The notes under the pieces are model-generated. The model made no database searches and had not been told where the DNA came from. It saw only the letters and a program-made list of their open reading frames with translations. Shown here in pieces: positions 9,425 through 32,785 of a stretch of DNA of 64,000 nucleotides (its first letter is position 1; each line of letters starts with the position of its first letter). Origin of the DNA: Pseudomonas extremaustralis (GTDB lineage: Bacteria > Pseudomonadota > Gammaproteobacteria > Pseudomonadales > Pseudomonadaceae); the NCBI RefSeq assembly GCF_900102035.1, contig NZ_LT629689.1, positions 3,518,001 through 3,582,000 on the forward strand, in the 5' to 3' direction. Made by a program: the position numbers and the translations under genes.

Positions 9425-9617
9425 GGCGCGATGTCCTCCCGGTGTCCACTGCACTTCGCTACTGCAGGCTCCGCCCATGCTATCGAAACGCTACTCATGT
9501 TGAAACCTCGGGTTTGCCTTGTACCTCAGCGCTCGCTCGGTCGCCTTGCCTGCTCGTGCCTTATCGGTTCCAACTAGCAACGCTCGGGGCAACGCACCGA
9601 ACTAGCATTGAGTCGCC

Positions 9618-14125: not shown

Positions 14126-14141
14126 CTGTATATGTATACAG
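14126..14141. promoter_or_regulatory. LexA box (SOS box) of umuDC
   Basis: CTGTATATGTATACAG fits CTG-N10-CAG, near perfect to the gammaproteobacterial SOS consensus. It ends 18 bp before the umuD start and lies between umuD and the divergent yedK-like gene, so LexA could repress either or both. Confidence 0.9.
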
Positions 14142-14159
14142 TTTTATTACAGATGCACC

Positions 14160-14591
14160 ATGTCCTGCACGATTCTCGGGCCACTGAGCAGCAGCTGTGT
14201 GACCCTACCTTTCTATTCCTTCCGCGTTCCGGCCGGGTTTCCCTCTCCGGCGCAGGATCACATCGAAGCCGAGATATCCCTCGACGAGCTGCTCGACCTC
14301 CGCGCACCGCATATGTACCTGGTGCGCATCAGCGGCGACAGCATGATCGACGCGGGGCTGTTCGATGGCGACCTGGCGATCGTCAATAAAGCGATGGAGG
14401 GGCGGCCTGGACTAATCGTCATCGCCGCGCTCAACGGCGATACGTTGGTCAAGCGCTTGGCCAAGGAAGGCGAACAGATCATTCTGCGGGCCGAGAACGA
14501 AGCCTACGCGCCGCGCTACGTACTCGAAGGGGATGAGCTACTGATCTGGGGCGTGGTCACTCACAGCGTGCACTGCCATGCCCCAGGCTGA
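14160..14591 (+). CDS. umuD: UmuD/RulA-like SOS mutagenesis protein
   Basis: ATG 14160 gives 143 aa. The S24 peptidase catalytic pair is present: Ser61 in GDSMIDAG and Lys98 in DTLVKRL. The self-cleavage site is Ala25-Gly26 in [10 protein letters not shown]. RecA-stimulated cleavage yields UmuD', which joins UmuC to form Pol V. It overlaps umuC by 14 nt and has a LexA box just upstream. The longer frame upstream of 14160 has no matching family sequence. Confidence 0.92.
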
Positions 14592-15855
14592 GTCGGCGAT
14601 TGCCCTGATCGACTGCAACTCGTTTTACGCCGCTTGCGAGCGGGTGTTCCGCCCAGATTTGCTGCGTACACCTATTGTCGTGTTGTCGAACAACGATGGC
14701 TGCGTGATTGCCCGCTCGGCCGAGGCTAAGACGCTAGGTATCAAGATGGGCGAGCCGTATTTTCAGATCAGACAAAAGCTGCGGCAGCACGGCATTTTGG
14801 AGTTCTCCAGCAACTACGCGCTTTACGGCGATATGAGTCAGCGGGTGATGACCATCCTTGAGGGGATGGCTCCGGTGCTGGAGGTGTACAGCATCGATGA
14901 AGCGTTTGCCGACCTGACTGGTATGCCCGGCAGCTTGGAGGCGCTAGGGCGGGAGATGCGTGCACGGGTGCTGCGCTGCACTGGTATCCCGGTGGGGGTG
15001 GGCATTGCCCAGACCAAAACCTTGGCCAAGCTGGCCAATCGTGCGTCGAAGCTATGGCAGCGGCAGACCGGTGGGGTCGTGGATATCCGCCAGCCCGAAA
15101 AGCGCGACAAGCTGCTGAAGGTGATGGATGTCAGCGAGGTCTGGGGTATCGGCCGGCAGATGACCGCCCACCTGGCCGACATGAACATTCGTACGGCCTG
15201 GGATCTTGCCCAGGCCGACGCCTGGACACTGCGCAGCAAGTTCTCGGTGGTGGTGGAGAAGACGGCCCGTGAGCTGCGCGGCACATCCTGCCTGGCGCTC
15301 GAGGAGCAAGTACCGCCGAAGCAAGAGATCTGCTGCAGCCGGATGTTTGGCAAACGCTTGCATGAGCTGTCACCGATCCGCGAAGCGGTGGCCACCTATG
15401 CGGCGCGGGCTTGTGAAAAGCTGCGCGCGCAGCGCTCCCTGTGCAAGAAGGTACGGGTCAGCATCCGCACCGGCATGTTCAACCCGGACGAGCCGAAGTT
15501 CGCCAGGGGCATTATCTGCGAGTTGCCCTACCCGACCGACGATACCCGGCTGATATCCAAGGCCGCCACCGAGGGGCTGAAACTGATCTACCGGGCCGGT
15601 TTTGCCTTCAGCAAGGCGGAGATCCTGTTGCTCGATCTGCGCCAGCGTGGCGAGTTCACCGACGACCTGTTCGTCGCGACACCGCCAGTGACTGCCGAGC
15701 GGGTGATGGGCGTGATGGATGCGATCAATGCACGATGGGGACGGGGAACCATGCGGCCTGCGGGGGTGCCGGCAAAACCGGACTGGGGCATGCGACGGGA
15801 GATGATGAGCCCGAGCTATACGACGCGGATCGATCAATTATGGACGGTAACGTAA
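14578..15855 (+). CDS. umuC: UmuC/RulB-like translesion DNA polymerase V subunit
   Basis: 425 aa, the usual UmuC length. The N-terminus [16 protein letters not shown] carries the first catalytic Asp; [10 protein letters not shown] holds the second acidic pair; [16 protein letters not shown] and WGIGRQ are the finger/thumb and helix-hairpin-helix parts. Y-family polymerases copy past damaged bases. It starts inside umuD (14-nt overlap), so the two are co-translated. Frequent on Pseudomonas mobile elements as rulAB. Confidence 0.93.
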
Positions 15856-18663: not shown

Positions 18664-19872
18664 TTACACTTCTTTTGCGAGCGACCTCGCCGCTTCGATC
18701 TGGGAAGTGATCATCGAAAGCTGTGTTTGCAGAAGTATGCGACTCTCTTCGAGCGAGCTTATCCCAGAATCAGACAAAGTCATTGCGATAGCCATATCGA
18801 CATACCATCTGAATGTTGTCGAAATTTTCTCATGACCCGCTTGCTGAGTTAGCCGCAATTCGATGCTACGCCTGTCTATTTCGGCGATCTCGCCGGCTTT
18901 GTAAAGCGACAGCTGAATGCGATACAGATACGCAGCATAACGTGTCAACGCATAGCGCCGCAGCCCGTGCGGCGAAATTTCACTATCTACAGAATCGAGC
19001 TGGTCGGTGATAGCTTGCGCAGTAAACCTTCCTCCGTTTGCATTATGAGTGCTTACAAACACAACGCCTGGATCATGGCCAGCATGGCACTTTCGGACTA
19101 TTTCCGGGCGCTCATACGCAATGTAATCAAGGGTCTCTTGAAGCAGCAAGGACTCGACTTCAATGTCACGTACCTTTCTAAACTTTGTGCCTTTGGTCAA
19201 AGTGACCCTCACCATGGTTCCGGGCATGACCTCGGGTGGAATTGCACTCACAGGCAGGGATACAACCTCCAAGCGCCTCAGTCCTGCCTCCGCCATCCAA
19301 CGAAGCATCAATTGATTGCGCACATTGATTTCTTCGGCGAGCGGGTGCCCGCATTCCAAAGTTTTATCAGCAATGCCATCTTTCAGGGCTGCAATTTCGT
19401 CTGCGGACGGAATACGCTTTCTTGCCTGCTGAACAGTTCCAAGCAAAAAAGGGATTTTATAGTTTGCACTACTCCCTTGCGTCGCCAGATTTACGACGAT
19501 ACGAAACACGCGACCGCTTAGCATGTCGTTAGAGCCGATCACTCCACGACACAAGCCCGTGTTTTCGGCATACCAATAGAAGGCGCAGACGGATGAAATT
19601 CGGTAATTAATAGCTTTGGCTTCAAGGTCGCCAGAGATCTTTAGCTCATCACGATACTTGCACAAAAGCCTGTCTGTGACATCGTAAATATCGCGTTCAC
19701 CAAGCCAGTTCAACCACGCCTTGAGTCGATATGCGATCTGACGAACATAGGATTTCTCATGACACTGAACGCTTTCAAGATCAAGCAAATAATGCGTTAC
19801 GTGACGCTGAAGCACCCCCGACCCATCAATAACGATGTGCTGTCCATTTTTAGTCGGCAACAGCTCAAACAT
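18664..19872 (-). CDS. Tyrosine recombinase (GmtY-like), 402 aa
   Basis: ATG 19872 (MFELLPTKNG) follows AAGGGTGG and overlaps the upstream gene by 8 nt. All catalytic residues of tyrosine recombinases are visible: Arg in GLRRLEVVSLP, Lys in LTKGTKFRKV, HGLRR, a His in AGHEKISTTFRW and the nucleophile Tyr in RWYVDMA. The N-terminus looks like a SAM-like core-binding domain (YVRQIAYRLKAWLNWL). It is the last gene of a four-gene overlapping set. Gene set, sizes and position match what I recall of Gamma-Mobile-Trio elements, in which this would be GmtY. Confidence 0.75.
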   Translation of the reverse strand: MFELLPTKNGQHIVIDGSGVLQRHVTHYLLDLESVQCHEKSYVRQIAYRLKAWLNWLGERDIYDVTDRLLCKYRDELKISGDLEAKAINYRISSVCAFYWYAENTGLCRGVIGSNDMLSGRVFRIVVNLATQGSSANYKIPFLLGTVQQARKRIPSADEIAALKDGIADKTLECGHPLAEEINVRNQLMLRWMAEAGLRRLEVVSLPVSAIPPEVMPGTMVRVTLTKGTKFRKVRDIEVESLLLQETLDYIAYERPEIVRKCHAGHDPGVVFVSTHNANGGRFTAQAITDQLDSVDSEISPHGLRRYALTRYAAYLYRIQLSLYKAGEIAEIDRRSIELRLTQQAGHEKISTTFRWYVDMAIAMTLSDSGISSLEESRILLQTQLSMITSQIEAARSLAKEV

Positions 19873-20344
19873 TTGAGCCACCCTTGAGCTTGCTGACACT
19901 GAATTGCTTGTCTGCCCATTGGGCTTGTTGCAAGGAAATGCGCTGCTCAAGTTCACGCACCTGATCAAGCAAATCAACGATGGTTTGCGACAAGCCAGGC
20001 ACTATCGTTTCATATTTTTTTACCTTCGCGTCAAGCTCGCTAATTCGCTTTGACTTGAGACAAATTCCCTGCTCAGCCCTGCCATTCTCCAGAACCGACT
20101 GTGCGCTCTCCAGTGACGAGATCACACGCTCGTGAGTGGCTGAGCCCGTCCTAAGTTGATCACCGGCCTTAGAGACGCTCTCGTAGGGCTCAGAAGCCAA
20201 GGCAGCAAACCAGTTGAGGGTGAATTTCTTCGGAACTGGAAAATCGGCCACCCCGTTTTCGATGTATTGCTTCAGACCGCTGAGCTTGCGCTGTATCTTC
20301 TGCTCTGTCTTTTGCCGGTTCACTTCACTAACATGTTTAGACAT
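19865..20344 (-). CDS. Small helical partner protein (GmtX-like), 159 aa
   Basis: ATG 20344 follows CAGGAGG and overlaps the stop of the 752-aa gene by 8 nt; its own stop overlaps the 402-aa recombinase start. The N-terminus is basic (KHVSEVNRQKTEQKIQRKL); residues about 80-145 are predicted coiled coil (LKSKRISELDAKVKKY, then LLDQVRELEQRISLQQ). No catalytic motif. Analogous in place and size to TnpC of Tn554 and to the small member of Gamma-Mobile-Trio sets; may steer recombinase assembly or orientation. Confidence 0.6.
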   Translation of the reverse strand: MSKHVSEVNRQKTEQKIQRKLSGLKQYIENGVADFPVPKKFTLNWFAALASEPYESVSKAGDQLRTGSATHERVISSLESAQSVLENGRAEQGICLKSKRISELDAKVKKYETIVPGLSQTIVDLLDQVRELEQRISLQQAQWADKQFSVSKLKGGSNV

Positions 20345-22595
20345 TGTGAGCCTCCTGCCTGTCGGCAAACGCTTTAAGCATCGGTGACGATGCAGGATCA
20401 AGAACCAGTCCGACATCTTCCGCACTGATGCCAGTCTCAAAGCCCAGCAAATTAGGGCATCCAATACACGACCCTCGGCAAGCCGAAGATTTTTGAACAG
20501 CATCATCCATGAGGCACTTACTGCGCTCTAACAAGGTCGGCGTCTGGCCGAAACATGCACCGTCAGGCACAAAGTTAAGAATGTAGCCAATTTCCTCAAC
20601 CTTCCCAATCATTTTTTCAGCGCGACTCTCTGAAACAGCATCAAACGAACTGAAAAAATCACCCAGTTCTTTCTGCATATTTCCGCAGAGCGCTTCAGTT
20701 CTTTCATTAGCAGCAGACTGTGCAAATGACACAATGCGTTCTGCTTTGATCTCTTCAAAAGCTCTGCGGAAGTCTTTGTCCGTGATGTACTTGGCGGTCA
20801 TTTCAAAATCTGTGTGACGCAAGTGCCAGGACAGCGTTGCAAGATCACCGGACTCAAACTTGTAGAAAAACATCATAGCGAAGAAGCGGCGGAACTGGTG
20901 CTCGCTAAACTGCCAAGGGGTTCCTTCATTATCTGGAACGCCGACGTACTCTGCGAATTCGTTGACTTTGCCGCTTGACCAATAATTAACCTCCCCACCT
21001 CCGAGCGTTGGAAAAGTAAGTAACGACTGGTTTTCTTCATTGCGAACCGGCTCAGTCAGGGCTTCAAGCACGCGAACCGCTTTAGCAACAAGCTTCGTGA
21101 CCGGAAAATACTTGTGCTCTTGATAAACCTTGGCAGAGTACATGCGGATAACCGGGCCGTTCGGCGTCTCCACACAGCATCCTGCTTGAAGCGATTCGAC
21201 TTCGCATTCCCTCCGAGCCGTAAAGCAATAGATAACCAGCAAACAGGCGGTTGGGAGTAAGTGGTGCAGACATTTATTAAGCGATGCACCGCTAACAGCA
21301 CGCCCCTTAGTAATAAGCTTATGTGCTGTTGCTTTACTCACACCCAAACGCTCGCCTATTTCCTGATATGTCAACCCTTGAGCACGAAGTGCGTGACAAT
21401 TTTGAATTTGCTCAGCAGGCAAGACCGATTCAAATTTTTTGGCAGAAGTATCTTTTGCAAACCCGCTTATGGGATAAGGACTCCCCGGATGTCCATCCAG
21501 CCACTCAAGTTGTTTGCTAAGCCACAAGCGCATTTTTTTCGACGCATAGTGCACCTTATGCACTTCTTTCCCGCCGCGCCCTACGTCATCAACATACTCT
21601 TCGTACTTCACCCGCGCCTGAGACTTAAGATCAATCAGCGGCTCGGCATAATCTACAACCCAGCGAATGGCCCGATCCATCAACTCAAAGAAAATAGGTT
21701 GCGGAATATCGCGCGTGCGCACGACGGCCCGCCCCATATTCTTAGATATTTTTTGGGGTTTGATATTATTTTTCTGAAAGAAATCCTTGGGTATCCGCTG
21801 GCTAACAGGAAAAAGGTCTTTAAATATCTGGCACTGACGATAGAGCCTTGAAATAGACGTCAACTCTTTACGAATTGTATCTTGCGAACTAGGGGTTGCA
21901 CTCTGCTCGCTGTCAATACACAAATAGCGTTTGAGTTTTGGTTCAATATAAAAACCATTTTCATAGCGAAACTTGGTAAGCATCACCACCAATGGTGTGT
22001 CGGTATTGCTTAGAATCCGATCACTGACGCCAAGCGCCTTGGCAAGCATCGTTACATTGAAGTCAGGCTGAATCTTATTTCCGTATACCACCGCATACCG
22101 CTCAAGATCGGCTGAAGCACCCCGCAGCTCGACAAGTTCCCCACGTAGACGCTCTTCAAGATTCAAACGTACATACAACGGCTTCCCTATTGACCGTGTA
22201 TAAATCGCAAATACTCCATCATTCACACTTGAAAGATGATTAACACCTTGGAGCCGGAGCCAGCGAACGTGGTTAATAATGTTATTGACGTATTTATACT
22301 GGGAGACACCGGACAAAAGGCCGCCTGTCTTTCTGTCATGAGTAATAGCGCGCGCAAGGTATGCCGAAAGCTTAACCGCATAACAGAGATCTTGATTATC
22401 CGTAAGCAGTTCATTCGGTGCCACGGCAACATTAAAGCGGATAATCTGTTGGCCTGTTTTATCCTCGACAACCCATTGATTATCTGCAAAACGCGACGCA
22501 CCGACAAACCAAGAGGCGGAATAAGAGCCAAGATCATTTAGATCGCGTTCATCATCGAAGAAACTTCTGTACGCATTCAAGTTAATGACACTCAT
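20337..22595 (-). CDS. Large tyrosine recombinase-like protein with internal HTH, 752 aa
   Basis: ATG 22595 overlaps the upstream stop (ATGA). The C-terminal half has recombinase residues: Arg at about 461 in TARRECEVESL, EHQFRR at 565-570, HLRHTDFEMT and Tyr603. A helix-turn-helix (LTYQEIGERLGVSKATAHKL) at about 408-427 sits just before the catalytic domain, unusual for integrases. A C-terminal cysteine cluster (CFGQ at 681, then CRGSCIGC at 706-713) could bind zinc. At 752 aa it is twice the usual integrase length. Probably the GmtZ-like or second recombinase of the module. Confidence 0.65.
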   Translation of the reverse strand: MSVINLNAYRSFFDDERDLNDLGSYSASWFVGASRFADNQWVVEDKTGQQIIRFNVAVAPNELLTDNQDLCYAVKLSAYLARAITHDRKTGGLLSGVSQYKYVNNIINHVRWLRLQGVNHLSSVNDGVFAIYTRSIGKPLYVRLNLEERLRGELVELRGASADLERYAVVYGNKIQPDFNVTMLAKALGVSDRILSNTDTPLVVMLTKFRYENGFYIEPKLKRYLCIDSEQSATPSSQDTIRKELTSISRLYRQCQIFKDLFPVSQRIPKDFFQKNNIKPQKISKNMGRAVVRTRDIPQPIFFELMDRAIRWVVDYAEPLIDLKSQARVKYEEYVDDVGRGGKEVHKVHYASKKMRLWLSKQLEWLDGHPGSPYPISGFAKDTSAKKFESVLPAEQIQNCHALRAQGLTYQEIGERLGVSKATAHKLITKGRAVSGASLNKCLHHLLPTACLLVIYCFTARRECEVESLQAGCCVETPNGPVIRMYSAKVYQEHKYFPVTKLVAKAVRVLEALTEPVRNEENQSLLTFPTLGGGEVNYWSSGKVNEFAEYVGVPDNEGTPWQFSEHQFRRFFAMMFFYKFESGDLATLSWHLRHTDFEMTAKYITDKDFRRAFEEIKAERIVSFAQSAANERTEALCGNMQKELGDFFSSFDAVSESRAEKMIGKVEEIGYILNFVPDGACFGQTPTLLERSKCLMDDAVQKSSACRGSCIGCPNLLGFETGISAEDVGLVLDPASSPMLKAFADRQEAHNV

Positions 22596-24673
22596 ACACT
22601 AGCCTCTTCGATGACGAAAACAGGGATAACATCAACGTAGGGATTCTGATGGCTATTGCAATACTCTTCTGCTTGAGTAAGCAATCTGCGTTGTTCACGC
22701 GCACTGTAGAGCCTGTCGAGAACTGAACTCACGAACAACTTCCACAGACTCCACCTAGAAAACTGTTCTTCCCCTAAGCACTCTTCGGCTTTTGCCAGCA
22801 CCTCGCGCCAGTGGATAACATTGGCGATATTTTCTTTTGTGGCAAGAAACAAACTACGGCGATTCGAGCAACTTACGCACTTATCAATGCGATGACAGAC
22901 TTTCCCCTCTATCGTGCCAGGCTGTACGCCGGCCATGGGATCTGAGCAATGTATGCCGCCGAACTGCTGATTGAGAATCCTTTGTTTGCGTATATCATAA
23001 GCCTCGGGATCAATACCGACTTTCTCTGCAAACTGATCAATATTGACGGTCAATACTGTTTCAAACCAGTCCAAAAATTCGCGAACCTTTTTTTCACGGC
23101 GCAGTATTTCAGGCAGGTGGTGGGTATACTTCGCCGCCATCGTCAAGTCACTATGACGACCGACCTGCATTACCTGCATGGCATCTCGGGTTACAAGGCC
23201 AGTCAACAAAAGAACGCTGCCACGCAGCGCTTTTAGTGTACTCGACCAGCGCTCCCCGGAGACCTCTCGACAGAGCGATTTAAAACTCATATTGATTGTG
23301 TTAAGCGCGAGCTTTGACGGCACATGCACTCGCTCACCGCCAGTTCCTTTTGTATAGTTTTTGTAGAACCCAATAAACAAACTATTGCGATCTTCTTCGC
23401 GCGCAAAGTCGCGAATATTCTCAGTGCATACCCTCAGATATTCAACAACATCAACGGCTGTCAAGGTATCGCAACTAAGCGCCACCCCATCTATGCGCGA
23501 GCTTACAACTACTGACTCCTGATTTTCAGCCCCTTTGCGTAATTTATTCCAGACAAACTGATACTGCCCATCATTGCCAATCGGAATGAGGCAGTTCGTT
23601 GCTAGATTTAATAAAGCATCGGGGTTGATTGCGTAATTGATCGAGAGCCATACAAACGCAGCCACACGAGCTTCACGCGAATAACCGAGAGCACTTCGAA
23701 CATCGGATATGGAGATACCGCTTTTTTGTATGCGGTTAGCCAAGAATGCGTAGGAAGCATCCTTATCAAAAGGATAAATTCCGCCATGATAGATATGGCA
23801 GTAAGTAACTATTACTTGCAGAGCACAGCCATCCATTATCATGGCGCATTCCGCACCCATAACTTTTGCCGCCTGACCACCAATTACCCCAACGGCAGGC
23901 TGTTCAAACATATCCCTCAAGCCTTTCGCCTTCCGTTGATATCCTTGATTACTCGCCCATCGCCTTGCGTCCTGAAGCAATTTATAGTGCTGTACGACCA
24001 AATCCGCACTGGCGCTTTTCAATGCTCCCAAGCGGCTATCTAAGACGCGAGTAGATGCCTCAACAATATCAAACGAATCTTCCAGCGAAGCACAGGCACC
24101 TGCCTCATTAAATAGATTTGAAAGGAGGCTTTCCATACCTTCGAGATCATCAAGCCCCTCGGAAATCAACGTATCCTGATGCTGAGAAATCAGCGCTTGG
24201 ATGTCAACCTCTTTATGAATGGTCACATCAAGCAGAGTGGAGCCTATTCCACGCTCAAACTGGAAGCCTTTGATGTTCAAGCCATGCGGCACGACACCAC
24301 GATTTGCAAGATGGCGAACGAACGCACGCACGCCGGCCGCATAGTTATTTTTTGTTCGATTTTCAATCTCTAGCTTATCAAGATTACTGCGATAGCCGCT
24401 CATCAGATTATGGAAAAGCACAACGATGTACGATTCGCCTGGGTCTGAGATCTCACCAGTTTTCAAGAAATTCCTGAGTTCTTCTTGCGAACCATCTTCG
24501 GCCAAGAAGTCCAAAAATTTAATGATGGGATAAAAATAAGAGACTTCAGTTGAGCTATTATCAGGCCAGAATATTTCGTATGCAGACACGAGGGCATTGC
24601 AAAAGTAATGACCGAGGCTTTCAGTATACTTACCGAAGTCGCGCTCGGTGTAGCCTTTCTTTAGCTTTAGCAT
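22592..24673 (-). CDS. Recombinase-like protein with degenerate active site, 693 aa
   Basis: ATG 24673 (MLKLKKGYTERDFGKY) follows GGGAGG. First gene of the overlapping set. The C-terminal region is recombinase-like: LKALRGSVLLLTG in place of HxxR, then QVGRHSDLTMAAKYTHH with the His and the nucleophile-type Tyr. The first catalytic Arg is not found where expected (NYAINPDALLNL). A cysteine group (CSDP, then CHRIDKCVSC) near the C-terminus resembles the one in the next gene. It may be a structural subunit. The IS30 remnant lies just upstream and may have cut it off from its original promoter. Confidence 0.6.
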   Translation of the reverse strand: MLKLKKGYTERDFGKYTESLGHYFCNALVSAYEIFWPDNSSTEVSYFYPIIKFLDFLAEDGSQEELRNFLKTGEISDPGESYIVVLFHNLMSGYRSNLDKLEIENRTKNNYAAGVRAFVRHLANRGVVPHGLNIKGFQFERGIGSTLLDVTIHKEVDIQALISQHQDTLISEGLDDLEGMESLLSNLFNEAGACASLEDSFDIVEASTRVLDSRLGALKSASADLVVQHYKLLQDARRWASNQGYQRKAKGLRDMFEQPAVGVIGGQAAKVMGAECAMIMDGCALQVIVTYCHIYHGGIYPFDKDASYAFLANRIQKSGISISDVRSALGYSREARVAAFVWLSINYAINPDALLNLATNCLIPIGNDGQYQFVWNKLRKGAENQESVVVSSRIDGVALSCDTLTAVDVVEYLRVCTENIRDFAREEDRNSLFIGFYKNYTKGTGGERVHVPSKLALNTINMSFKSLCREVSGERWSSTLKALRGSVLLLTGLVTRDAMQVMQVGRHSDLTMAAKYTHHLPEILRREKKVREFLDWFETVLTVNIDQFAEKVGIDPEAYDIRKQRILNQQFGGIHCSDPMAGVQPGTIEGKVCHRIDKCVSCSNRRSLFLATKENIANVIHWREVLAKAEECLGEEQFSRWSLWKLFVSSVLDRLYSAREQRRLLTQAEEYCNSHQNPYVDVIPVFVIEEASV

Positions 24674-24709
24674 AGTGCCTCCCTGCAATACTCATGGCGG
24701 TTGCAGAAG

Positions 24710-25690
24710 CTGAGTGCAACACGGTTATTGAATTGAAGCTGGAGCATCATGCATTGCAGTGCGATGGCATCCAACTCTTCTTGGCTGTATACCGACAAGT
24801 CCGTTCCTTTGGGCAGGTACTGGCGCGTTGCTGCCACATTGCCAAGGGCTGTGCGGTCAAAGAAGCAGATCGCCACGCCGGTCTTCTGGGTGATCTCCGC
24901 GTGTCTCGCCATCTCCCGGCCCTGGTCGTAGGTCATGCTCTTGTGCATCGCCAGCGGCATGCGATTGAGCGCCGGGCTGAAGCCTTCCAACGCCGAGGTG
25001 GCCGTCGCGTCGTTCATCTTGATCAGAACAGGTAGCCACTGGTGCGTCCCACCAAGGTACCTACCGCAGAGGCGTTGGCGTTGGCCTTGATCAGGTCACC
25101 CTCCCACTGGCCCGGCATCAGGCGGTCTTCGATCTCCGGCGGGCGTACTTGGATGCTGACTATCTCGGGAATCTGGCCGCACCGATCTACACCGCCAGAA
25201 CGCGGCCTGCGTGTCGTCTTACCTTGGCGCAGACAGATGATCAGCTCCTTGCGCAGCTCACCGGCGGGCAGGGGATAGATCGCGCTGTAGATCGTCTCGC
25301 GACAGACGTAGGCATCTCTGAGGTCGGGTATGTTCATGCTGCGCAGCTTGCCGGCAATCTGCTCGGGAGACAAACGTTCACGCAGCATATGAGCGAACAG
25401 GTCGAAGCGCTCACTACCGGGCAGCAATTTGCGTCTGGGGAGGGAGGCTTGACGCCGGCGCAGCATCTGTTGCTGCTGGGCTCCGTGGGCCGAGTAGGTG
25501 CCGCAAACTTCGCGTTTACGACGCAGCTCTCGGCTGATGGTCGAGGGGGATCGGTTGATCACGCAGGCAATCCTTCTCTGACTGAAGCCTTTGGCATGAC
25601 CGATTTGGATAGTGGCGCGCACTGCAACGCTAAGTTCGGAATAGGACATAGGGGCAGCACCGTACCGAAATGGTCAGGTGTTGCACTCAG
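24710..25690 (-). mobile_element. IS30-family insertion sequence, decayed
   Basis: Perfect 13-bp terminal inverted repeats (CTGAGTGCAACAC) lie at 24710-24722 and, inverted, at 25678-25690. The element is 981 bp, shorter than typical IS30 copies (about 1.1-1.2 kb). It sits between the recombinase operon and the island recA, so it inserted after the island formed. The transposase inside is broken. Confidence 0.85.
24740..25649 (-). pseudogene. IS30 transposase, frameshifted
   Basis: Starts MSYSELSVAVRATIQIGHA at 25649; HTH region FSQRRIACVINRSPSTISREL and the first DDE part PGQWEGDLIKANANASAVG are clear. The frame breaks at about 25020, continues in another frame with FSPALNRMPLAMHKSMTYDQG, then QYLPKGTDLSVYSQEELDAIA, and degenerates after that. 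The stretch between the last Asp and Glu of the DDE triad is scrambled (FFDRTALGNVAATRQYL), so it should be inactive. Confidence 0.8.
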
Positions 25691-25748: not shown

Positions 25749-26798
25749 TCAATATTCGACTTCTGGAACTTCAGAAATAGGGCTGGCAGTTGGTTTGGCT
25801 GCTGGAGTGACACTAAGCAACCTGTCCCGGATCTGCTTCTCAAGCTCTTGTGCGGCCTGCTCGTTATCTTTCAACCATTGCGCAGCGTTTGCCTTACCTT
25901 GGCCGATCTTGTTGCCTTGGTAGCTGTACCAAGCACCTGACTTTTCAACCAGTTTTTCTTGCACACCTAGATCGATAAGCTCGCCCATCTTGTAGATTCC
26001 AGCACCGTACATGATCTGGAACTCTGCCTGCCTAAACGGTGGGGCCACCTTGTTTTTTACGACCTTAACGCGGGTTTCGCTGCCGATCACGGTATCGCCA
26101 TCCTTAACGGCACCGGTGCGGCGAATATCAAGTCGCACAGAGGAATAAAACTTAAGTGCATTTCCCCCAGTTGTAGTTTCGGGGTTGCCGAACATCACAC
26201 CGATCTTCATGCGGATCTGGTTAATAAAGACCAGGATGGTATTGGTCTGTTTAACACTTGCAGTCAGCTTGCGCAGCGCTTGAGACATCAAGCGGGCTTG
26301 CAGGCCCACGTGCGAGTCACCCATTTCGCCTTCGATTTCAGCCTTCGGCACCAATGCAGCTACCGAGTCGATGATAATGACTCCGATAGAACCGGATCGC
26401 ACGAGCATATCGGTAATTTCCAATGCCTGCTCGCCCGTATCCGGTTGCGATACCAACAAGCTATCGAGATCAACTCCAAGCTTTTCAGCATACAGTGGAT
26501 CAAGCGCATGTTCGGCATCTATAAATGCACAGGCCTTTCCAAGTTTTTGTGCTTGTGCGACAATTTGCAAACACAAAGTGGACTTTCCGCTTGATTCCGG
26601 ACCATAAATTTCAATTATACGCCCCTCTGGCACTCCACCAATACCAAGTGCAATATCAAGTCCGAGAGAGCCAGTTGAAACAGCCGGAATAGGTTCTCTT
26701 GGCTCTTCGCCCATACGCATCACTGCGCCTTTACCGAACTGCTTCTCGATTTGCGACAAAGCCGCATCCAGCGCCTTCTTTTTGTTGGCTTCCATCAT
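25749..26798 (-). CDS. recA: RecA recombinase carried by the island
   Basis: Full-length, 349 aa. Walker [10 protein letters not shown] is at 66-74; the [27 protein letters not shown] block gives L1/L2 DNA-binding loops and RecA fingerprint; the acidic C-terminal tail is present. It should do strand exchange and LexA/UmuD co-protease work. In the 64 residues that can be compared, it differs from the host RecA at 14 positions, so it is not a recent duplicate. Start ATG 26798 has GGCGAGGG upstream and lies 10 bp after the stop of the broken host recA frame. No LexA box of its own is seen; the host recA promoter at 27140 likely drives it. Confidence 0.95.
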
Positions 26799-26808
26799 TT
26801 GCCCTCGC

Positions 26809-27099
26809 CTAAGCTGATACCTGAACTGGTTTTGGTGTTATGACCGGCCTAGAGGCCAGTGTGAACAAGTCGTTCACACACATGAACCGATTTTGTGGGC
26901 GTGAATAATAAATTTCAACGATACGGCCTTTTGGCAGGCCGCCAATGCCGAGCGCGATGTCCAGACCCAGAGAGCCAGTGGAAATAGCCGGGATCGCCTG
27001 ACGGTCGTGATCGCCCATACGCATTACGGCACCTTTGCCGAATTGACGTTCGATCTGACCCAGGGCCGCAGCCAAGGCTTTCTTCTTGTTGTCGTCCAT
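26809..27099 (-). pseudogene. recA: Host recA 5' fragment, cut by the island
   Basis: ATG 27099 follows GAGGAC. Codons 1-64 are normal Pseudomonas RecA ([20 protein letters not shown] ... GRIVEIY). Right after VEIY, where GPESSGK should follow, the frame changes to [15 protein letters not shown] and ends at 26809. The break is at about 26908, just before the Walker A codons. The fragment has no ATP site and cannot work as RecA. The host position is confirmed by the adjacent cinA. Confidence 0.93.
26859..26879. repeat. Palindrome just inside the island end
   Basis: Perfect 8-bp arms GTGTGAAC and GTTCACAC are separated by 5 nt. A second palindrome, GGCCTAGAGGCC, directly adjoins at 26847-26858. 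Both lie 30-60 bp inside the island junction at about 26908, a place where recombinase or accessory-factor binding sites are usual. Could also be an operator for the recA read-through transcript. Confidence 0.55.
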
Positions 27100-27139
27100 T
27101 AAAGTCCTCACGTAATCAATAAGGCCTGGCGGCCAACAC

Positions 27140-27155
27140 CTGTATAAGTAGACAG
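27140..27155. promoter_or_regulatory. LexA box and promoter of host recA
   Basis: CTGTATAAGTAGACAG fits CTG-N10-CAG. On the minus strand TATACA within it could serve as -10 with TTGTGG as -35 (16-nt spacer). It lies about 40 bp upstream of the host recA start. Since the host gene is cut, this SOS promoter now reads into the island recA. Confidence 0.85.
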
Positions 27156-27182
27156 TATTGTTCCACAAAGATCGGAGATCGC

Positions 27183-27683
27183 CTACCCCTGATTTTCTAT
27201 TTCTGCTGCAGCTCGTCGCAACAAGCCCTCTAGGGCGGCCGTTACCGTTTGTCGGCGGACCTCGTCGCGGTTGCCGGAGAAGTGCTGGCGCTCGGCCGTG
27301 ACCTTGTCACCCACGCCAAACGCGAGCCATACCGTGCCCACCGGCTTGTCCGGCGAACCGCCATCGGGGCCGGCTACACCGCTGACCGCCACGGCGAAAC
27401 GCGCCAGACTTTTTTCCTGGGCGCCCCGGACCATGGCCTCCACCACCTCACGGCTGACGGCTCCGACTTTGCCGAACAGTTCTTCGGGGACATTCAATTG
27501 GCGAGTCTTCTGCCGATTGGAATAGGTGACATATCCTGCCTCGAACCAGGCCGAACTGCCCGGTATGCGCGTGATGGCTTCGGCGATACCGCCGCCGGTA
27601 CAGGATTCGGCGGTGGTGACATGGGCATTGAGCACCTGTAGACGGCGACCCAGTTCAGCGGCAAGTTGGGTGATTTCCTTCAC
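27183..27683 (-). CDS. pncC: CinA C-terminal-domain protein (nicotinamide-nucleotide amidase)
   Basis: GTG 27683 with CCAGGAGA upstream gives 166 aa, the stand-alone CinA/PncC size. Motifs [21 protein letters not shown], then [10 protein letters not shown] and [19 protein letters not shown] are typical. The family converts nicotinamide mononucleotide to nicotinate mononucleotide in the pyridine nucleotide cycle. It precedes recA in pseudomonads, which fixes the chromosomal site and orientation of the island junction. Confidence 0.92.
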
Positions 27684-27825: not shown

Positions 27826-28392
27826 CTAGGCAACGCATAGCGCCGCCTTCGCCCGCGCCCATAGCCGCAAGCGATCCTCCAGCCCATTCAGCCCACCGTT
27901 GATGCGCCGCGTGATAACGCTGAACTGATCCTTGTCGGCCAGTTCATTGAGGCCATTGCACTGCCAGAACCAGGCGGCAGACTCACATGCCCATTGCGGT
28001 TGCTCCAGCAGTTCCGGCCGCTGCAACAACCGCTCATCACCGAACAGCGCCTGACTGCACGCCTGGTAGTTGCGACGGCCGGTGATCTGGATGAGGCCCC
28101 TGCCCCGGTACTTCTGACCGTCGCCATCGGCCTCGACGGTATTGCCCAAGCGAGCGGCCAACACACCCGTGTCATATTTGCTCAAGTACTGCTCACTGCC
28201 CAGTTCGCGCACGTAGCGCAGTTCGGCGGATTCGTGGCCGACTTGGGCGAGAAAGGCGGCAGCGCGCCGGGGGCTGTTAATCCCGTAGCGCGCAAACGCC
28301 AGATTTAAAGTGGGCAAAAAAACACCCGCCTTAAGGCTGGCTCCCGGCATGATTTGAGTCAGTTGAGGCAGTGTGATCACCATCGGTTTCAT
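27826..28392 (-). CDS. Tailocin-associated endolysin, glycoside hydrolase 19 type
   Basis: 188 aa. Contains RRAAAFLAQVGHESAEL with the catalytic Glu, YRGRGLIQITGRRNY and the INGGLNGLEDRL end, all typical of GH19 phage lysozymes. It is a clear paralogue of the prophage enzyme at 35417-35950. It would cut peptidoglycan for tailocin release with the holin at 30918. Probably still intact, though the particle genes are not. Confidence 0.85.
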   Translation of the reverse strand: MKPMVITLPQLTQIMPGASLKAGVFLPTLNLAFARYGINSPRRAAAFLAQVGHESAELRYVRELGSEQYLSKYDTGVLAARLGNTVEADGDGQKYRGRGLIQITGRRNYQACSQALFGDERLLQRPELLEQPQWACESAAWFWQCNGLNELADKDQFSVITRRINGGLNGLEDRLRLWARAKAALCVA

Positions 28393-28404
28393 CCTGAAAA
28401 AACC

Positions 28405-29001
28405 CTATGTCGACAACCCACCCGCCGTGATCGAACTGCGATACCCCGTCACCGGATCGCCCACATTCACCACTTTGGTAATTGACCAGCGCCCCTGCAT
28501 GTACGACGGCCAGGTCTCGTCCAGCCGCAACAGCCCTTCGGCAGACAGCAGCGGATTACCGGGGCAATCGCAATCTCCTCCAGGGCGGGCGCCACCCGCG
28601 CAGAAAAACCGGGGCACTCGACTATCTGGCGAAACAGCGCCCCCAGGGTCGTCGGCCCGTAACTGGCGGATCGACGCTGGCGGTAGCCGCTGGGGTCCAC
28701 CATGCTGAAAGGGGCAGCCGTCGCCACAATCATCAAGCGCATGGGAAACAGGACGGGGGTTCGTTGGGTGATCGCGAATTCGCCTTTTTCCACCAACCCC
28801 GACTCTTTATAACCGACACGCAAGCCGATCTTGCCGCTCATGCTGGGCAAGCCTTCAAGCCCCTCGATATTGCGGGTCAGCTCCAGACGATCAGACTCGA
28901 TGCCCGCCGCATCAGTGTGGCGCCAGTGCATGATGCGCTGATTGAGTAACGCCGCGTTGGCGCCGTAAAACTCGACAATGGGGGGTAAATCCCTGTGCCA
29001 T
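28405..29001 (-). pseudogene. Tail protein gpD (late control D), broken
   Basis: ATG 29001 begins MAQGFTP, but a run of six C shifts the frame before the expected IVEFYGANAALL. The body resumes as MHWRHTDAAGIESDRLELT with GKIGLRVGYKESGLV, and breaks again at about 28580. The last part, AEGLLRLDETWPSYMQGRW to ITAGGLST, is in a third frame. A large middle piece is missing (normal gpD is about 330-380 aa). In P2-like tails gpD is the hub/spike adaptor. Confidence 0.75.
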
Positions 29002-29010
29002 GCCGCCTCC

Positions 29011-29223
29011 TTAATCCCACGCCAGAACGGAGCGCACCGCCGTCGGGTGCGATTGCATTTCGGGCACGATCACCCATACGCAAGCCGGGAGTACCGGGCC
29101 GTACTCGGCAAGCGTGGGGTTCAAACGCCAAAGGTTTTCTTCCGCTGCGTCATCGCAACGATCCAACTCGCGGTACAGCAGCAGGTTCACCGAATCACCG
29201 GCGATACTTCGCACTCTACGCAT
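29011..29223 (-). CDS. Tail protein gpX, LysM-like
   Basis: ATG 29223 follows GAGGAG. 70 aa: MRRVRSIAGDSVNLLLYREL, then a NPTLAEYGPVLPACVWVIVPE block, matching P2 gpX, a small LysM-type tail protein. Start overlaps the gpU stop by 8 nt. Looks intact. Confidence 0.85.
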   Translation of the reverse strand: MRRVRSIAGDSVNLLLYRELDRCDDAAEENLWRLNPTLAEYGPVLPACVWVIVPEMQSHPTAVRSVLAWD

Positions 29224-29599
29224 TGGCGAACTCCTCGAGTTCCAGGGTCCAGGCAACCACCATGGCAGTGCCGTCATCAATCACGCTGCTCTGGGTTTCC
29301 GCCACCGCATTGATCCGCCAAAGGCCCCAGTTACGGCCGATGCCGTCGACCAGAGGCAACGGTAGCCGCAGGTTCTGCAAGGCGCGTAGTTCATCCAGCC
29401 GCTGCATACCCTCGGCGTACATGGCCGTTCCGCTGAAGGTGAGTTTTTCCGATTTCTGCCCGTTCTGCCGCGACTGGGGCTTGCTGGCGATAATCGCCAA
29501 GTCTGCCCAGCCGCCATCGCTATTGCGGGTCAACGAGGAGTAGGCAAAGCCCTGGGACAGACCGAATATAAAATCGCCCAACACCATTTGTTGTCGCAT
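29216..29599 (-). CDS. Tail protein gpU
   Basis: 127 aa from ATG 29599 (MRQQMVLGDFIFGLSQGFAY), with WADLAIIASKPQSRQ and GRNWGLWRINAV, matching P2-like gpU, a tail-end component of contractile tails and R-type tailocins. It is overlapped by the tape-measure stop. Intact by length. Confidence 0.85.
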   Translation of the reverse strand: MRQQMVLGDFIFGLSQGFAYSSLTRNSDGGWADLAIIASKPQSRQNGQKSEKLTFSGTAMYAEGMQRLDELRALQNLRLPLPLVDGIGRNWGLWRINAVAETQSSVIDDGTAMVVAWTLELEEFANA

Positions 29600-30099
29600 C
29601 AATCACCTCCAGAGTCGGCCAGGGCCGCGTTGCGCCGGATGCCCAGACTGTCCGTGAGCATCGGCATGCACTGAAATTGCAGGGCCTTGATCACCTGGTT
29701 GACGACCTGTTGAGCGTCGGCCGGGTTGACCCCGGTGATCTGAATACTCGGGGTAATCGTGATTTGGGCGTTGTCCGTCCGGGCGCTGTTGAGCTCTTTG
29801 CTCACGGCGCCAGGAGCGGGGAGGCGATCGGCTGAGCCGAACAGTTTGTCGCCTAGCCACGCGCCCGCCTCACTACCGAGCAAGCCTCCGATTGCGCCGC
29901 CGACGGCAGTGCCGACGCCGGGGAAAATCAGCGTACCGATGGCGGCTCCGGCGGAAGCGCCGGCCAAGGCTGCCCCTGCGGTGCTCAGCCCTATGCCGAT
30001 GGCTTTTGCGTCGCCGTTGCGTGCGCCGTGGATCACGTCCATGGCGACGGCGGCATATTTCAGGGGGCCAAGCCTGCGGGCCGTAGCAGTAAACCCCAT
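29599..30099 (-). pseudogene. Tape-measure protein, C-terminal part of tailocin
   Basis: The frame holds RRLGPLKYAAVAMDVIHGA, a Gly/Ala-rich membrane-like segment and ITPSIQITGVNPADAQQVV, which match the last 160 or so residues of P2-like tape-measure proteins. Normal length is 800 aa or more, so most of the gene has been deleted. It follows directly on the gpV fusion, marking the deletion scar. Confidence 0.75.
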
Positions 30100-30377
30100 G
30101 GTTTTGTTACCACCAGTGGGGCATCAGCTTCGGGGTCTGGGGCTTTGATCGAACGGCTCGGGTTGGACAACGAACTGTTGAGCGTCTCCAACGTTTCCCG
30201 CAAGCGCACTTGTCCCTGCGTCAAGGCGTTGATATTGGTGGCGGCGTCGACCTCCTGGCATATGCCAATCCGACAGAAACTTTCCGCGCGTCGATACAGG
30301 TCTTCGAGCTGGGCGTCCATTTCCGCCAGGCGCTCGACGATCGGCCCCAGTTGCACACGTAGCAATGCGTCGAACAT
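30060..30377 (-). pseudogene. Baseplate gpV N-terminus fused to other tail sequence
   Basis: Starts MFDALLRVQLGPIVERLAEM then CRIGICQEVDAATN, the N-terminus of P2-like baseplate protein V. After about residue 48 the spike part is replaced by NALTQGQVRLRETLETLNSS, which resembles tail chaperone or tape-measure N-terminal sequence. This is one side of a large deletion that removed the rest of V, W, J, I, fibre, sheath and tube genes. Confidence 0.65.
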
Positions 30378-30380
30378 GGA

Positions 30381-30896
30381 CTACTCCTGCAGGGGACGAT
30401 ATTGATTCGGATCGTCGATGTCCGAGACTTCCCAGGTGTGGGCAAACAGCGGGGTGCCTGTGGGATCTTCGAGCAACGACGGACCGAAATAGAGGTTTTG
30501 GGAGAAGAACACTGTCCACGCGTCGTAGTCCGTTTCGGCACCTGTGAGTGCGGTCGGTGCCGCGACGATGGCCGTGGGCAAATCGCATTGATCGGGCGGC
30601 AGGCCCCAACGGTTATCCAGCGTCAGGTCCATCAATTGGCTGGCCAGGTCGCAGGCGTCAAAAGGAGCAGCGCCGCCGGCAACCGTGACCCTGAGTGAAA
30701 CGGACAAGGCGTGTGCCTTGCGTCCTTCCAAGGAGCGAACGTTGGGGCCGTTGCGCTCGACGCTGATCAATACGCCGGTTTTATCTCCGGTGCCGACAAA
30801 GTCCTGATGATTGCCTACGCGCAATTGTGGGAAGGCGCTCTTCAGCGCCTGCCCAATCGCCACAGGCAGTTGGGATGGCTTTTCGATAAGTGTCAT
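30381..30896 (-). CDS. Tailocin structural/assembly protein, unknown
   Basis: 171 aa from ATG 30896 (MTLIEKPSQLPVAIGQALKS). Looks like the phage protein that precedes gpV in pseudomonad tailocin clusters; possibly a head-tail or tail completion type. No motif beyond that. It appears intact. Confidence 0.5.
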   Translation of the reverse strand: MTLIEKPSQLPVAIGQALKSAFPQLRVGNHQDFVGTGDKTGVLISVERNGPNVRSLEGRKAHALSVSLRVTVAGGAAPFDACDLASQLMDLTLDNRWGLPPDQCDLPTAIVAAPTALTGAETDYDAWTVFFSQNLYFGPSLLEDPTGTPLFAHTWEVSDIDDPNQYRPLQE

Positions 30897-30917
30897 TGCG
30901 TTGCGTCCTTGCAGCGG

Positions 30918-31262
30918 TTACTGCTGATCCGGGCGAGAGGTTGGGGGCTCGTTGACCCCGATGCGCTTGGCCGCCCAGCGTTCATAAAGACCGATGGCGA
31001 CATCCGCGCCGGCCATGGCGGTCAGGCAACCAATGGCGCCGGCGGTCCAGATCGACATGCCGGCGGCGTAGCACAGCATCAAGGCCGAGACCCCGCAGAC
31101 CATGCACGCCCCGGACCGCAGGGCCAGGCGCCGCACCAGCGACCAACCGCGGGCGCCCTCCTTGTCGGCACGCCACATTTCGCCGGATACACCGCCGATC
31201 AGGGCCAGTACGATCACCAGCCAGATAGGCATTTCCGCTAACGCTTGCTGCTCGTTTGTCAT
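30918..31262 (-). CDS. Holin of the tailocin
   Basis: ATG 31262 follows GGAGGCG. 114 aa with three hydrophobic segments: WLVIVLALIGGVSG, a middle SGACMVCGVSALMLCYAAG and a GAIGCLTAMAGADVAIGL helix, then a charged C-terminus. This is the make-up of class I phage holins, which form pores in the inner membrane so the endolysin can reach the wall. Confidence 0.75.
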   Translation of the reverse strand: MTNEQQALAEMPIWLVIVLALIGGVSGEMWRADKEGARGWSLVRRLALRSGACMVCGVSALMLCYAAGMSIWTAGAIGCLTAMAGADVAIGLYERWAAKRIGVNEPPTSRPDQQ

Positions 31263-31856
31263 GTCACGCCTCCTGGCTGAGCAATGCCGGCAGAGTGCCG
31301 GTGTTGGGGTAACTTCCATGGGTAGGTAGGCATTCCAAAAAGCCCGGTTGCCCAGGCTTTTCAGTAATGATGTCCTCGATCTTTCGGCGCTACTGGCGCG
31401 GTACAGATCTTTCCTCGATGTTTTTCCGACCACGATCCCTGTCTGCCGGATAACTGCTTCTGGTGCTTTACGCTGCACACCCGGGTCAGTTGCCAACCCT
31501 CTGAACCGTTGAGGCCGGTTCATCGCTGCCTGTTCCTTGAAGCGGTGTCACTAAAGAGCGTCGGCATCCTTGCCGGTATTGCCTGGCCTCCCTGCCATCG
31601 CTCGGATGGCGTCCTTGCCGATGTTGCGTGCCGTCCTTGTCTTTCCTGGCAGCTTCCTTGCCGCCTCCACCAGACCTTGTTGGCTGGCTTGAGACGAAGA
31701 ATATGCATGTATGCATATACAGTCAATGCGTAAATGCATTTATTTTTGCTCGATCAATGTACAGGTGCATTAAAGCCTTGCAGGCAAAGGGCCCGGCCAT
31801 TTTCCCTAGGCGAAAAAAAGCCCGCTCATTGGCGGGCCGTGTCTTACAGAAGAAGG
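31263..31856. other. Gene-free stretch with operator-like repeats and a terminator
   Basis: No convincing gene; short frames here have no family match. Around 31701-31765 TGCAT-type motifs recur (ATGCATGTATGCATATAC, AAATGCATTTAT), similar to those upstream of the repressor. A hairpin GCCCGCTCATTGGCGGGC at about 31817-31837, next to an A-run, should end repressor-direction transcripts. Confidence 0.5.
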
Positions 31857-32591
31857 TTAGCGGGCGTACATGCCCCACCAGAACACATGACCGAGGATGC
31901 TGATTTGCTCATCCTGGATATCCTGGAAGCTGTAGTCCTCGTCGGGATGCTCATCGCGGTTGAAACTGCGCAGGCGAATCCCGGAAGGCAGGCGATAGAG
32001 CTGTTTGACCCGCAATTGGCCATTGTGATTGATGGCGTACAAGTCGCCATCGACGATGTCTCCAATTGCGCTCTTGCCTGCATTCACCCCTACCGTCGCG
32101 CCATCGCGCAACACCGGCAACATGCTGTTACCGCGCACCGTCACACACTTGGCCTGGTCGAACTGCACGCCGTTATGTCGCAGGCTGCGCTTACCGAACC
32201 GCAGGCTGGCCTTCTCGCTTTCCTCGATGACGAATCTTCCTGATCCAGCAGCCAATTCAACCTCGCGCAGAAAGGGGATCGACACCTCGTCGTCATTTAC
32301 GGGGGTGTCGTCGTCCCACAGGCTTATGTCCTTGAGTTCCGAATGCATCGGGTCACGCCCGTCATCCCGCGAAACGCCCACCGCCGCGCGCCCGCGCAAC
32401 TGGTCGGTGCTGACGCGGAAGTACTCGGCGATACGGGAAATGTGCTTGTCCGACGGATCAACGATCTTGCCGCTGAGGATCCGGGACAGCGTGGATTGAG
32501 GCACGCCGGTACGCCGATGAAGCTCCGTGGGGGAGATTCGGTCGCGATCCAGCAGTTCTCTTAAGACGATAGAAACGTTGCGTTTTTGCAT
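31857..32591 (-). CDS. LexA-like (Xre-S24) repressor, PrtR type
   Basis: ATG 32591 (MQKRNVSIVLRELL) gives 244 aa. HTH PTELHRRTGVPQSTLSRILS at about 21-40; S24 peptidase domain with Ser in GNSMLPVLRD and Lys in LRVKQLY. RecA-triggered self-cleavage would release the tailocin or lysis genes on DNA damage, as PrtR does for pyocins. With the island RecA next door, induction would depend on the island's protein. Confidence 0.85.
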   Translation of the reverse strand: MQKRNVSIVLRELLDRDRISPTELHRRTGVPQSTLSRILSGKIVDPSDKHISRIAEYFRVSTDQLRGRAAVGVSRDDGRDPMHSELKDISLWDDDTPVNDDEVSIPFLREVELAAGSGRFVIEESEKASLRFGKRSLRHNGVQFDQAKCVTVRGNSMLPVLRDGATVGVNAGKSAIGDIVDGDLYAINHNGQLRVKQLYRLPSGIRLRSFNRDEHPDEDYSFQDIQDEQISILGHVFWWGMYAR

Positions 32592-32623
32592 AGCGGGGAT
32601 AGTGACGGGAGTTTTGCGGATTG

Positions 32624-32639
32624 GCAAATGCTGATTTGC
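32624..32639. promoter_or_regulatory. Candidate repressor operator
   Basis: GCAAATGCTGATTTGC is a perfect 6-bp inverted repeat with a 4-nt centre, 33 bp upstream of the repressor start. A second half-site series (TTTGCATATTTTATGCATC) follows to 32654. Position and symmetry suit autoregulation by the Xre-S24 repressor. Confidence 0.6.
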
Positions 32640-32785
32640 ATATTTTATGCATCTTGAGCGCAGAGGCCTGCAATCATCCCTTGCAGCAATGGAGCCTCCA
32701 GCCAAAGCGATGTCAATTTGAAACACCCGCTTAGATTAGATCAAGCAGCGGCAGGCTGTTTCTTGATAAACCAAGGAAGATCGTG

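Follow-up and report, generated by a model that had tools for sequence, protein, structure and literature searches.

An island inside host recA of Pseudomonas extremaustralis that carries a divergent, complete recA and a four-gene tyrosine-recombinase operon

The closest known system to the locus described here is the group of recA mobile elements (RMEs) of Vibrio, known from V. cholerae S24 and V. parahaemolyticus 090-96, whose recA is 23-24% divergent (PMC4405046, PMC4334540). Like the Pseudomonas island, an RME lies inside recA with both halves of the gene flanking it, and its stub end holds a recA that is complete and divergent. The V. cholerae RME also carries umuDC as added repair cargo, and the recA halves around the V. 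parahaemolyticus RME overlap by 6 bp, as they do here (PMC4405046, PMC4334540). For the V. parahaemolyticus RME, the published table of genes contains four adjacent ones of approximately 650, 674, 243 and 435 codons, the last annotated as a phage-family recombinase, and the size order, compared by this table only, is that of our element. A likeness to the V. cholerae recA island had been proposed in an earlier note, made from the letters of this DNA, and is supported by PMC4405046; the logic is the same, whereas site, layout and recA control differ. RMEs are inserted at nt 491-494 (about codon 165) rather than at codon 64, have their recombinase genes at the recX end rather than beside recA, and measure about 30-33 kb compared with 71,929 bp; the V. 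cholerae recA-RME has its own LexA box, and none was found before our island recA. For the V. cholerae RME, a restored empty site was detected by nested PCR (PMC4405046).

Three further kinds of element are comparable. Strand-biased circularizing integrative elements (SEs) share with our element related IntA and IntB proteins, a small fourth gene, imperfect terminal repeats and a 6-bp spacer (PMC10214605), although their order, intA-tfp-intB-srap, is permuted relative to ours, tfp-intB-small-intA. SEs reportedly form no empty site, and copy-out movement has been proposed for them (PMC10214605). GInts occur in Pseudomonas, are site-specific, and have a four-gene operon at one end and variable cargo of up to at least 70 kb; their target differs from ours, the likeness being one of description only (PMC5385486), and some of them do form an empty site. 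The 65-kb tmk island of P. putida KT2440 also splits a housekeeping gene and carries a replacement, but the target is tmk, the replacement is a phage-type kinase that is not an orthologue, and the system has been tested genetically (PMC10653934). Its flanking genes encode two tyrosine recombinases, a TetR-annotated protein and one unknown (PMC10653934), a set that could be read as an SE/GInt operon. For the SE Tn6283, its authors suggest that cargo partly compensates for the bcp gene broken by the element. Viewed together, RMEs, the KT2440 tmk island and Tn6283 suggest that breaking and replacing a gene may be a habit of this kind of element. Generalities on SEs, Tn554 and the LexA consensus follow PMC4334540, PMC10214605, PMC10653934, PMC5991714 and PMC5385486.

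The window analysed here is a stretch of 64,000 nucleotides from the P. extremaustralis genome. Its open reading frames bear out the minus-strand order described in the earlier note, namely cinA, a 64-codon host recA stub, a sharp break and a complete second recA in the same direction. Host cinA (27183-27683) was assigned from its open reading frame and gene order, and also adjoins recA in HGW-Gammaproteobacteria-13 (L012) and Pseudomonas sp. GD03858 (L014). The stub frame comprises host recA codons 1-64 (27099-26908) and the break lies immediately 5' of the Walker A codons. Host recA proper accounts for codons 1-62 (26914-27099), and codons 63-64 are a 6-bp spacer, ATTTAT, encoding Ile-Tyr (26908-26913). 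The island end that follows (26799-26907) has the terminal motif TATTCACG and subterminal AAAATCGGTTCATGTG and AAAACCAGTTCAGGTA, motifs read by eye and without statistics. The island recA (25749-26798) is complete, with 349 codons and a TIGR02012 score of 557 bits against a cut-off of 325. The stub reading frame continues past the junction into island sequence, and its stop lies 10 bp short of the second recA ATG; a previously claimed 10-bp gap applies to this stop. Host sequence proper ends at 26914, 115 bp from that ATG. A recount of the N-termini of host stub and island RecA gave the same 14 differing residues of 64 as before.

When the genome, a single contig of 6.67 Mb, was searched with the island RecA, three strong matches were obtained. 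Two were the island recA and the stub; the third covered codons 64-347 of another RecA, 76% identical to the island RecA (3472121-3472978). The last is the 3' part of host recA, which runs from 3472978 down to 3472106 on the contig (G000:C1), is followed by recX and lies 72 kb from the stub, to the left of the window, where the earlier note had expected it. The junction on this side reads ATGACGTGCTTT-ATCTAC-GGTCCTGA. Because the host recA remainder and recX sit at the far end in the same genome, the insert can be placed at 3472979-3544907, which is 71,929 bp. Its G+C content is 57.4%, compared with 58.9% for the part of the window that lies to its right, and that of the recA and recombinase region is 49.5%. 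The search found no other complete recA in the genome, including the host-type copy that would have spoken against the island reading; two further RecA-like matches at E <= 0.001 were partial, 28 and 29% identical, and belonged to other proteins. The island recA is the only complete recA found in this genome.

The same break, cinA followed by a 64-codon stub, occurs in Pseudomonas sp. GD03858 and in the gammaproteobacterial MAG HGW-Gammaproteobacteria-13 (HGW-13). A scan of named genomes with R752, the large recombinase of the island, gave three loci: L014 in GD03858 (genome G169), L012 in HGW-13 and L013 in a P. synxantha MAG. The L013 contig has the recombinases and ends short of recA, and was not counted as a recA insertion; G169 and G300 are one genome, counted once, from which both L011 and L014 derive. 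In L014 and L012 the order is cinA, 64-codon stub, island recA, insertion sequence, R698, R752, small open reading frame and R437; in L012 the insertion sequence is partial, and N residues mask the first 40 island recA codons. In GD03858 the 3' half of host recA shares a contig with the stub, about 29 kb from it; in HGW-13 it is on a separate contig. The GD03858 island is about 29 kb long with different cargo, and has recA, the four-gene operon, the insertion sequence and little else in common with ours. Since two other genomes are broken at the same codon, the habit of breaking and replacing recA is real.

Two recA starts close together in the same direction might also reflect a diverged copy of the host's own gene, produced by tandem duplication or by gene conversion within the genus. 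The residue differences between the two starts and the distance of the host 3' half both argue against such an origin, as does the relationship among islands. Island RecA proteins are 98% identical across hosts whose own genes diverge far more: between P. extremaustralis and GD03858, island recA is 96.8% identical in nucleotides, the host recA 3' parts 84% (800 bases) and the CinA proteins 72%. In a tree of 27 rows, obtained after 8 of 35 long or partial rows had been removed, the island RecAs formed one clade (100/100) and the Pseudomonas RecAs, with the 3' part from our host, another (100/100). The full 35-row tree contained the same two groups with a weaker island clade (93/58). Island RecA is therefore outside the Pseudomonas clade in the best tree; a joint clade of island and Pseudomonas RecAs was not rejected (p-AU 0.227). 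Duplication was rejected on the far 3' half, the near-identical island RecA in other hosts and the tree, as the earlier note had also concluded, and we give it practically no chance of being correct. With both junctions, the only-copy status, the two further genomes and the tree in agreement, the central proposal of that note, an island within recA bringing a divergent complete recA, is supported.

Among the best 120 RecA relatives listed, the closest to the island RecA were a cluster at 99% and one protein at 87%, the remainder being 77-82% identical and the named ones mostly from Marinobacterium, Neptuniibacter and their kin. In 230 alignment columns that were invariant in 22 other rows, the island RecA was changed at 14, mostly to similar residues. 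The dN/dS values of island recA in three pairs were 0.16, 0.067 and 0.065; island recA is under purifying selection, and its product is predicted to be functional.

At both ends of all three islands, the 6-bp spacer encodes Ile-Tyr. The stub-side junctions are GTTGAA-ATTTAT-TATTCACG in P. extremaustralis, GTTGAG-ATCTAC-TATTCACG in GD03858 and GTTGAA-ATCTAC-TATTCACG in HGW-13, and the recX-side junctions, in the same order, are GCTTT-ATCTAC-GG, GCTTT-ATCTAT-GG and GCTTT-ATCTAC-GG. The empty site was ATCTAC in 7 of 7 relatives examined (a subset of 11), so in P. extremaustralis the recX side carries the six host bases and the stub side others. Because ATTTAT is unlike the ATCTAC of the relatives, it was probably brought by the island, although it could also reflect two synonymous changes after insertion. 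A differing stub spacer that still encodes Ile-Tyr is what would be predicted if the element moves from one recA to another. The footprint, with the host 6 bp at one end and another 6 bp at the opposite end, is that of SEs and Tn554 (PMC10214605), and was judged against relatives for one island, that of P. extremaustralis. The ends form imperfect repeats by eye, TATTCACG with AAAGCACG and AAAACCAGTTCAGGTA with AAAACTGGTTCAAGTA.

Over 270 codons, the 3' part of host recA is separated from that of genome G017 by 42 synonymous changes and 2 non-synonymous ones, and a comparison pair of two intact relatives differs by 46 and 2. Both host recA halves appear intact and undecayed, which suggests that the insertion is young or often undone. 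As the halves are intact and either spacer gives the same amino acids, precise excision would restore host recA. At the recX-side end of all three islands, an open frame with an ATG is fused to host recA codon 63 onward (3473032-3472973 in P. extremaustralis), a frame that chance alone allows fairly often; no promoter-like site was found at this fusion in P. extremaustralis. A bolder side-reading is that the start codon keeps a trimmed host RecA or recX expressed.

These observations bear on a further proposal of the earlier note, that the island is a form of addiction. Part of it stands: the only complete recA is the island's, and the host is likely to depend on the island for recombination and SOS. 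True addiction would entail copy-out movement, a host recA that is never restored, and a host crippled by loss of the island recA. The operon is partly related to that of SEs, for which no empty site is reported (PMC10214605), and this agrees with copy-out; for the V. cholerae RME, a restored empty site was detected by PCR (PMC4405046), and some GInts also restore theirs. The undecayed halves weigh against the idea in the same way, since only imprecise loss or SE-like copy-out would leave the host without recA. Loss of recA is, in addition, survivable in many bacteria. We therefore regard true addiction as unlikely, while giving it some weight.

Four minus-strand genes with successive overlaps of 4, 8 and 8 bp form the recombinase operon. 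R698 (22592-24688) is the first and is weakly Tfp-like; R752 (20337-22595) is a large, IntB-like tyrosine recombinase; O159 (19865-20344) is a small protein in the Srap/GinD position; and R437/402 (18664-19872) is an ordinary, IntA-like tyrosine recombinase of 402 aa from the ATG at 19872 or 437 aa as the longest open reading frame, from 19977. pVb1796 and a Rahnella plasmid provided the SE references, elements taken as SEs from their gene order, and identity between SE and operon proteins was low (22-28%). R437 matched the IntA-type protein of a Vibrio plasmid element (blastp E 7e-15; profile probability 97.8%, E 9.6e-13) and R752 matched IntB (profile 98.0%, E 1.7e-13). The match of R698 to Tfp was weak (61%, E 8.1e-5), with a profile that contains a Providencia row without demonstrated homology; R752 also matched Tfp at 36%, and the probability of R698 against IntB was 0.3%. 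As judged by eye, R698 appears to lack the first catalytic Arg. O159 reached a profile probability of 1.6% against Srap, the likeness being one of position and size only. From these relationships, the four genes are predicted to catalyse movement of the element.

The same permuted size order was found in Providencia plasmids, where umuDC follows, in a P. aeruginosa plasmid and in Pseudomonas sp. FeN3W. In the Providencia operon the counterpart of R752 alone was homologous by blastp (E 4e-13), the counterparts of the other three genes giving no significant blastp match. R752 matched 50 plasmid records, with identities under 60% throughout and query coverage short of 80% in every case, and R698 had no match in plasmids. 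A phage origin was rejected, as R698 had no match in phages and the R752 profile had no relative among viral contigs.

The host recA promoter contains a LexA box of the form CTGT-N8-ACAG (27140-27155), and a second LexA box precedes the island umuDC (14126-14141). These two exact matches in the window compare with 0.77 expected, and 16 of 100 shuffles reached two, so that the argument for the box is its position and not the count. The host recA box is exact in L012 and has one mismatch in L014. In the three islands, allowing up to two mismatches revealed no LexA-like site in the interval that separates the island end from island recA, an interval that is partly N in L012. The host SOS promoter therefore probably drives island recA, the most economical interpretation. 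At 26918-26890, across the stub junction, lies a weak sigma-70-like match (one found, 0.3 expected), and the island recA may thus also own a promoter.

The cargo includes umuD (14160-14591, plus strand; Peptidase_S24; 143 aa when started at the ATG that follows the LexA box), umuC (14578-15855, plus strand), and gajA and gajB, a Gabija-type defence pair with very high scores (5493-9478, minus strand). The recX end carries a type I restriction system (L007:4337-15086), and between the subunits of this system are a PrrC-like gene, a Schlafen/AlbA-type protein and a PHP-AAA protein. Further cargo comprises genes for polyhydroxyalkanoate and acetate metabolism, in one cluster, and an ABC/outer-membrane efflux set. 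Between recA and R698 there is a broken insertion sequence with an HTH_38 transposase in two open reading frames (24667-25649, minus strand), which we take to be IS30-like; it occupies the same place in GD03858 and, in part, in L012. It is 77% identical to its GD03858 counterpart, compared with 90% for the neighbouring R698. Beside cinA, the window encodes an endolysin, tail proteins and a phage-type repressor (27826-32726), presumably a tailocin cluster.

The element is rare. Of 398 Pseudomonas genomes, 392 of which gave a RecA match, 2 had a codon-64 island; R698 was present in 2 of 298, P. extremaustralis and GD03858. A protein 87% identical to R752 (P0124), found by protein search, is filed under P. 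aeruginosa. The R752 profile detected its own genome only among 369 genomes of the class at E <= 1e-20. A RecA match was obtained in 354 of 370 genomes of the class and was lacking in 16. Fifteen were taken further, 12 with two matches (besides P. extremaustralis) and three with a weak best match; sequence was inspected for G417, G413 and G828, in which recA 5' pieces reach contig ends, and the remaining 12 were at most judged by their entries in the match table. More than one RecA match was obtained in 9 of the 398 genomes of the genus and none in six, among the latter G342, listed as 100% complete. The nine include the two codon-64 islands and G075, with a break at a second site. The contig of G186 ends at recA codon 65, G076 looks like a recA frameshift from the match table, and G200 has three similar recA copies on three contigs. 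An additional divergent RecA was observed elsewhere in G038, G063 and G356, beside a full-length native-type recA. The open-access literature matches listed, a set that leaves out most subscription journals, included no published recA island from Pseudomonas.

In G075, a recA stub extends to about codon 167 and is followed by a divergent full-length RecA, 67% identical to ours. The host recA 3' part is on another contig, both junctions contain CTGCAG, and the recX side reads AAAACCGGTTCAGGTA, resembling the ends of the codon-64 islands. The evidence comes from three stretches (L035, L029 and L039) without recombinase genes on them. This break is close to the Vibrio RME site at nt 491-494.

The reading that we hold with high confidence is that a 71.9-kb four-gene tyrosine-recombinase element, like SEs, GInts and RMEs, breaks host recA and substitutes its own RecA. 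The element would recognise the highly conserved recA sequence around codons 62-66, and its insertion there with a 6-bp spacer destroys host recA. Its RecA belongs to a lineage that travels with the element, and the island recA lies directly inside the end that lands behind the host recA promoter. In that position, the LexA-controlled promoter, leader and stub most likely transcribe island recA, so that recombination and SOS would continue with the protein of the element. The replacement RecA may let the element use an otherwise costly target.

Alternatively, recA might be hit at random and the survivors be those insertions that happened to carry a recA. Selection alone would purge recA-less insertions, and a similar idea appears in PMC4334540. 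All three islands, however, share the codon and the 6-bp frame, their ends are conserved and recA is always promoter-proximal, which makes passive carriage very unlikely. More tentatively than break-and-replacement itself, and with less than even confidence, we suggest that SEs, GInts, RMEs and the tmk island may be one superfamily with a break-and-replace strategy, of which the Pseudomonas branch would capture the host SOS promoter. In such a superfamily, a four-gene recombinase would target a near-invariant stretch of a housekeeping gene, the spacer would keep frame and amino acids, and a substitute gene would be carried.

If the superfamily exists, each 6-bp spacer would record the recA of the previous host, and spacers are a possible tracer of hops between hosts. 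Replacement of recA by mobile elements extends beyond Vibrio and to a second site, and may link element kinds that have been described separately. recA is a phylogenetic and strain-typing marker and is regarded as an immobile core gene; here, the working recA is a mobile gene common to several hosts.
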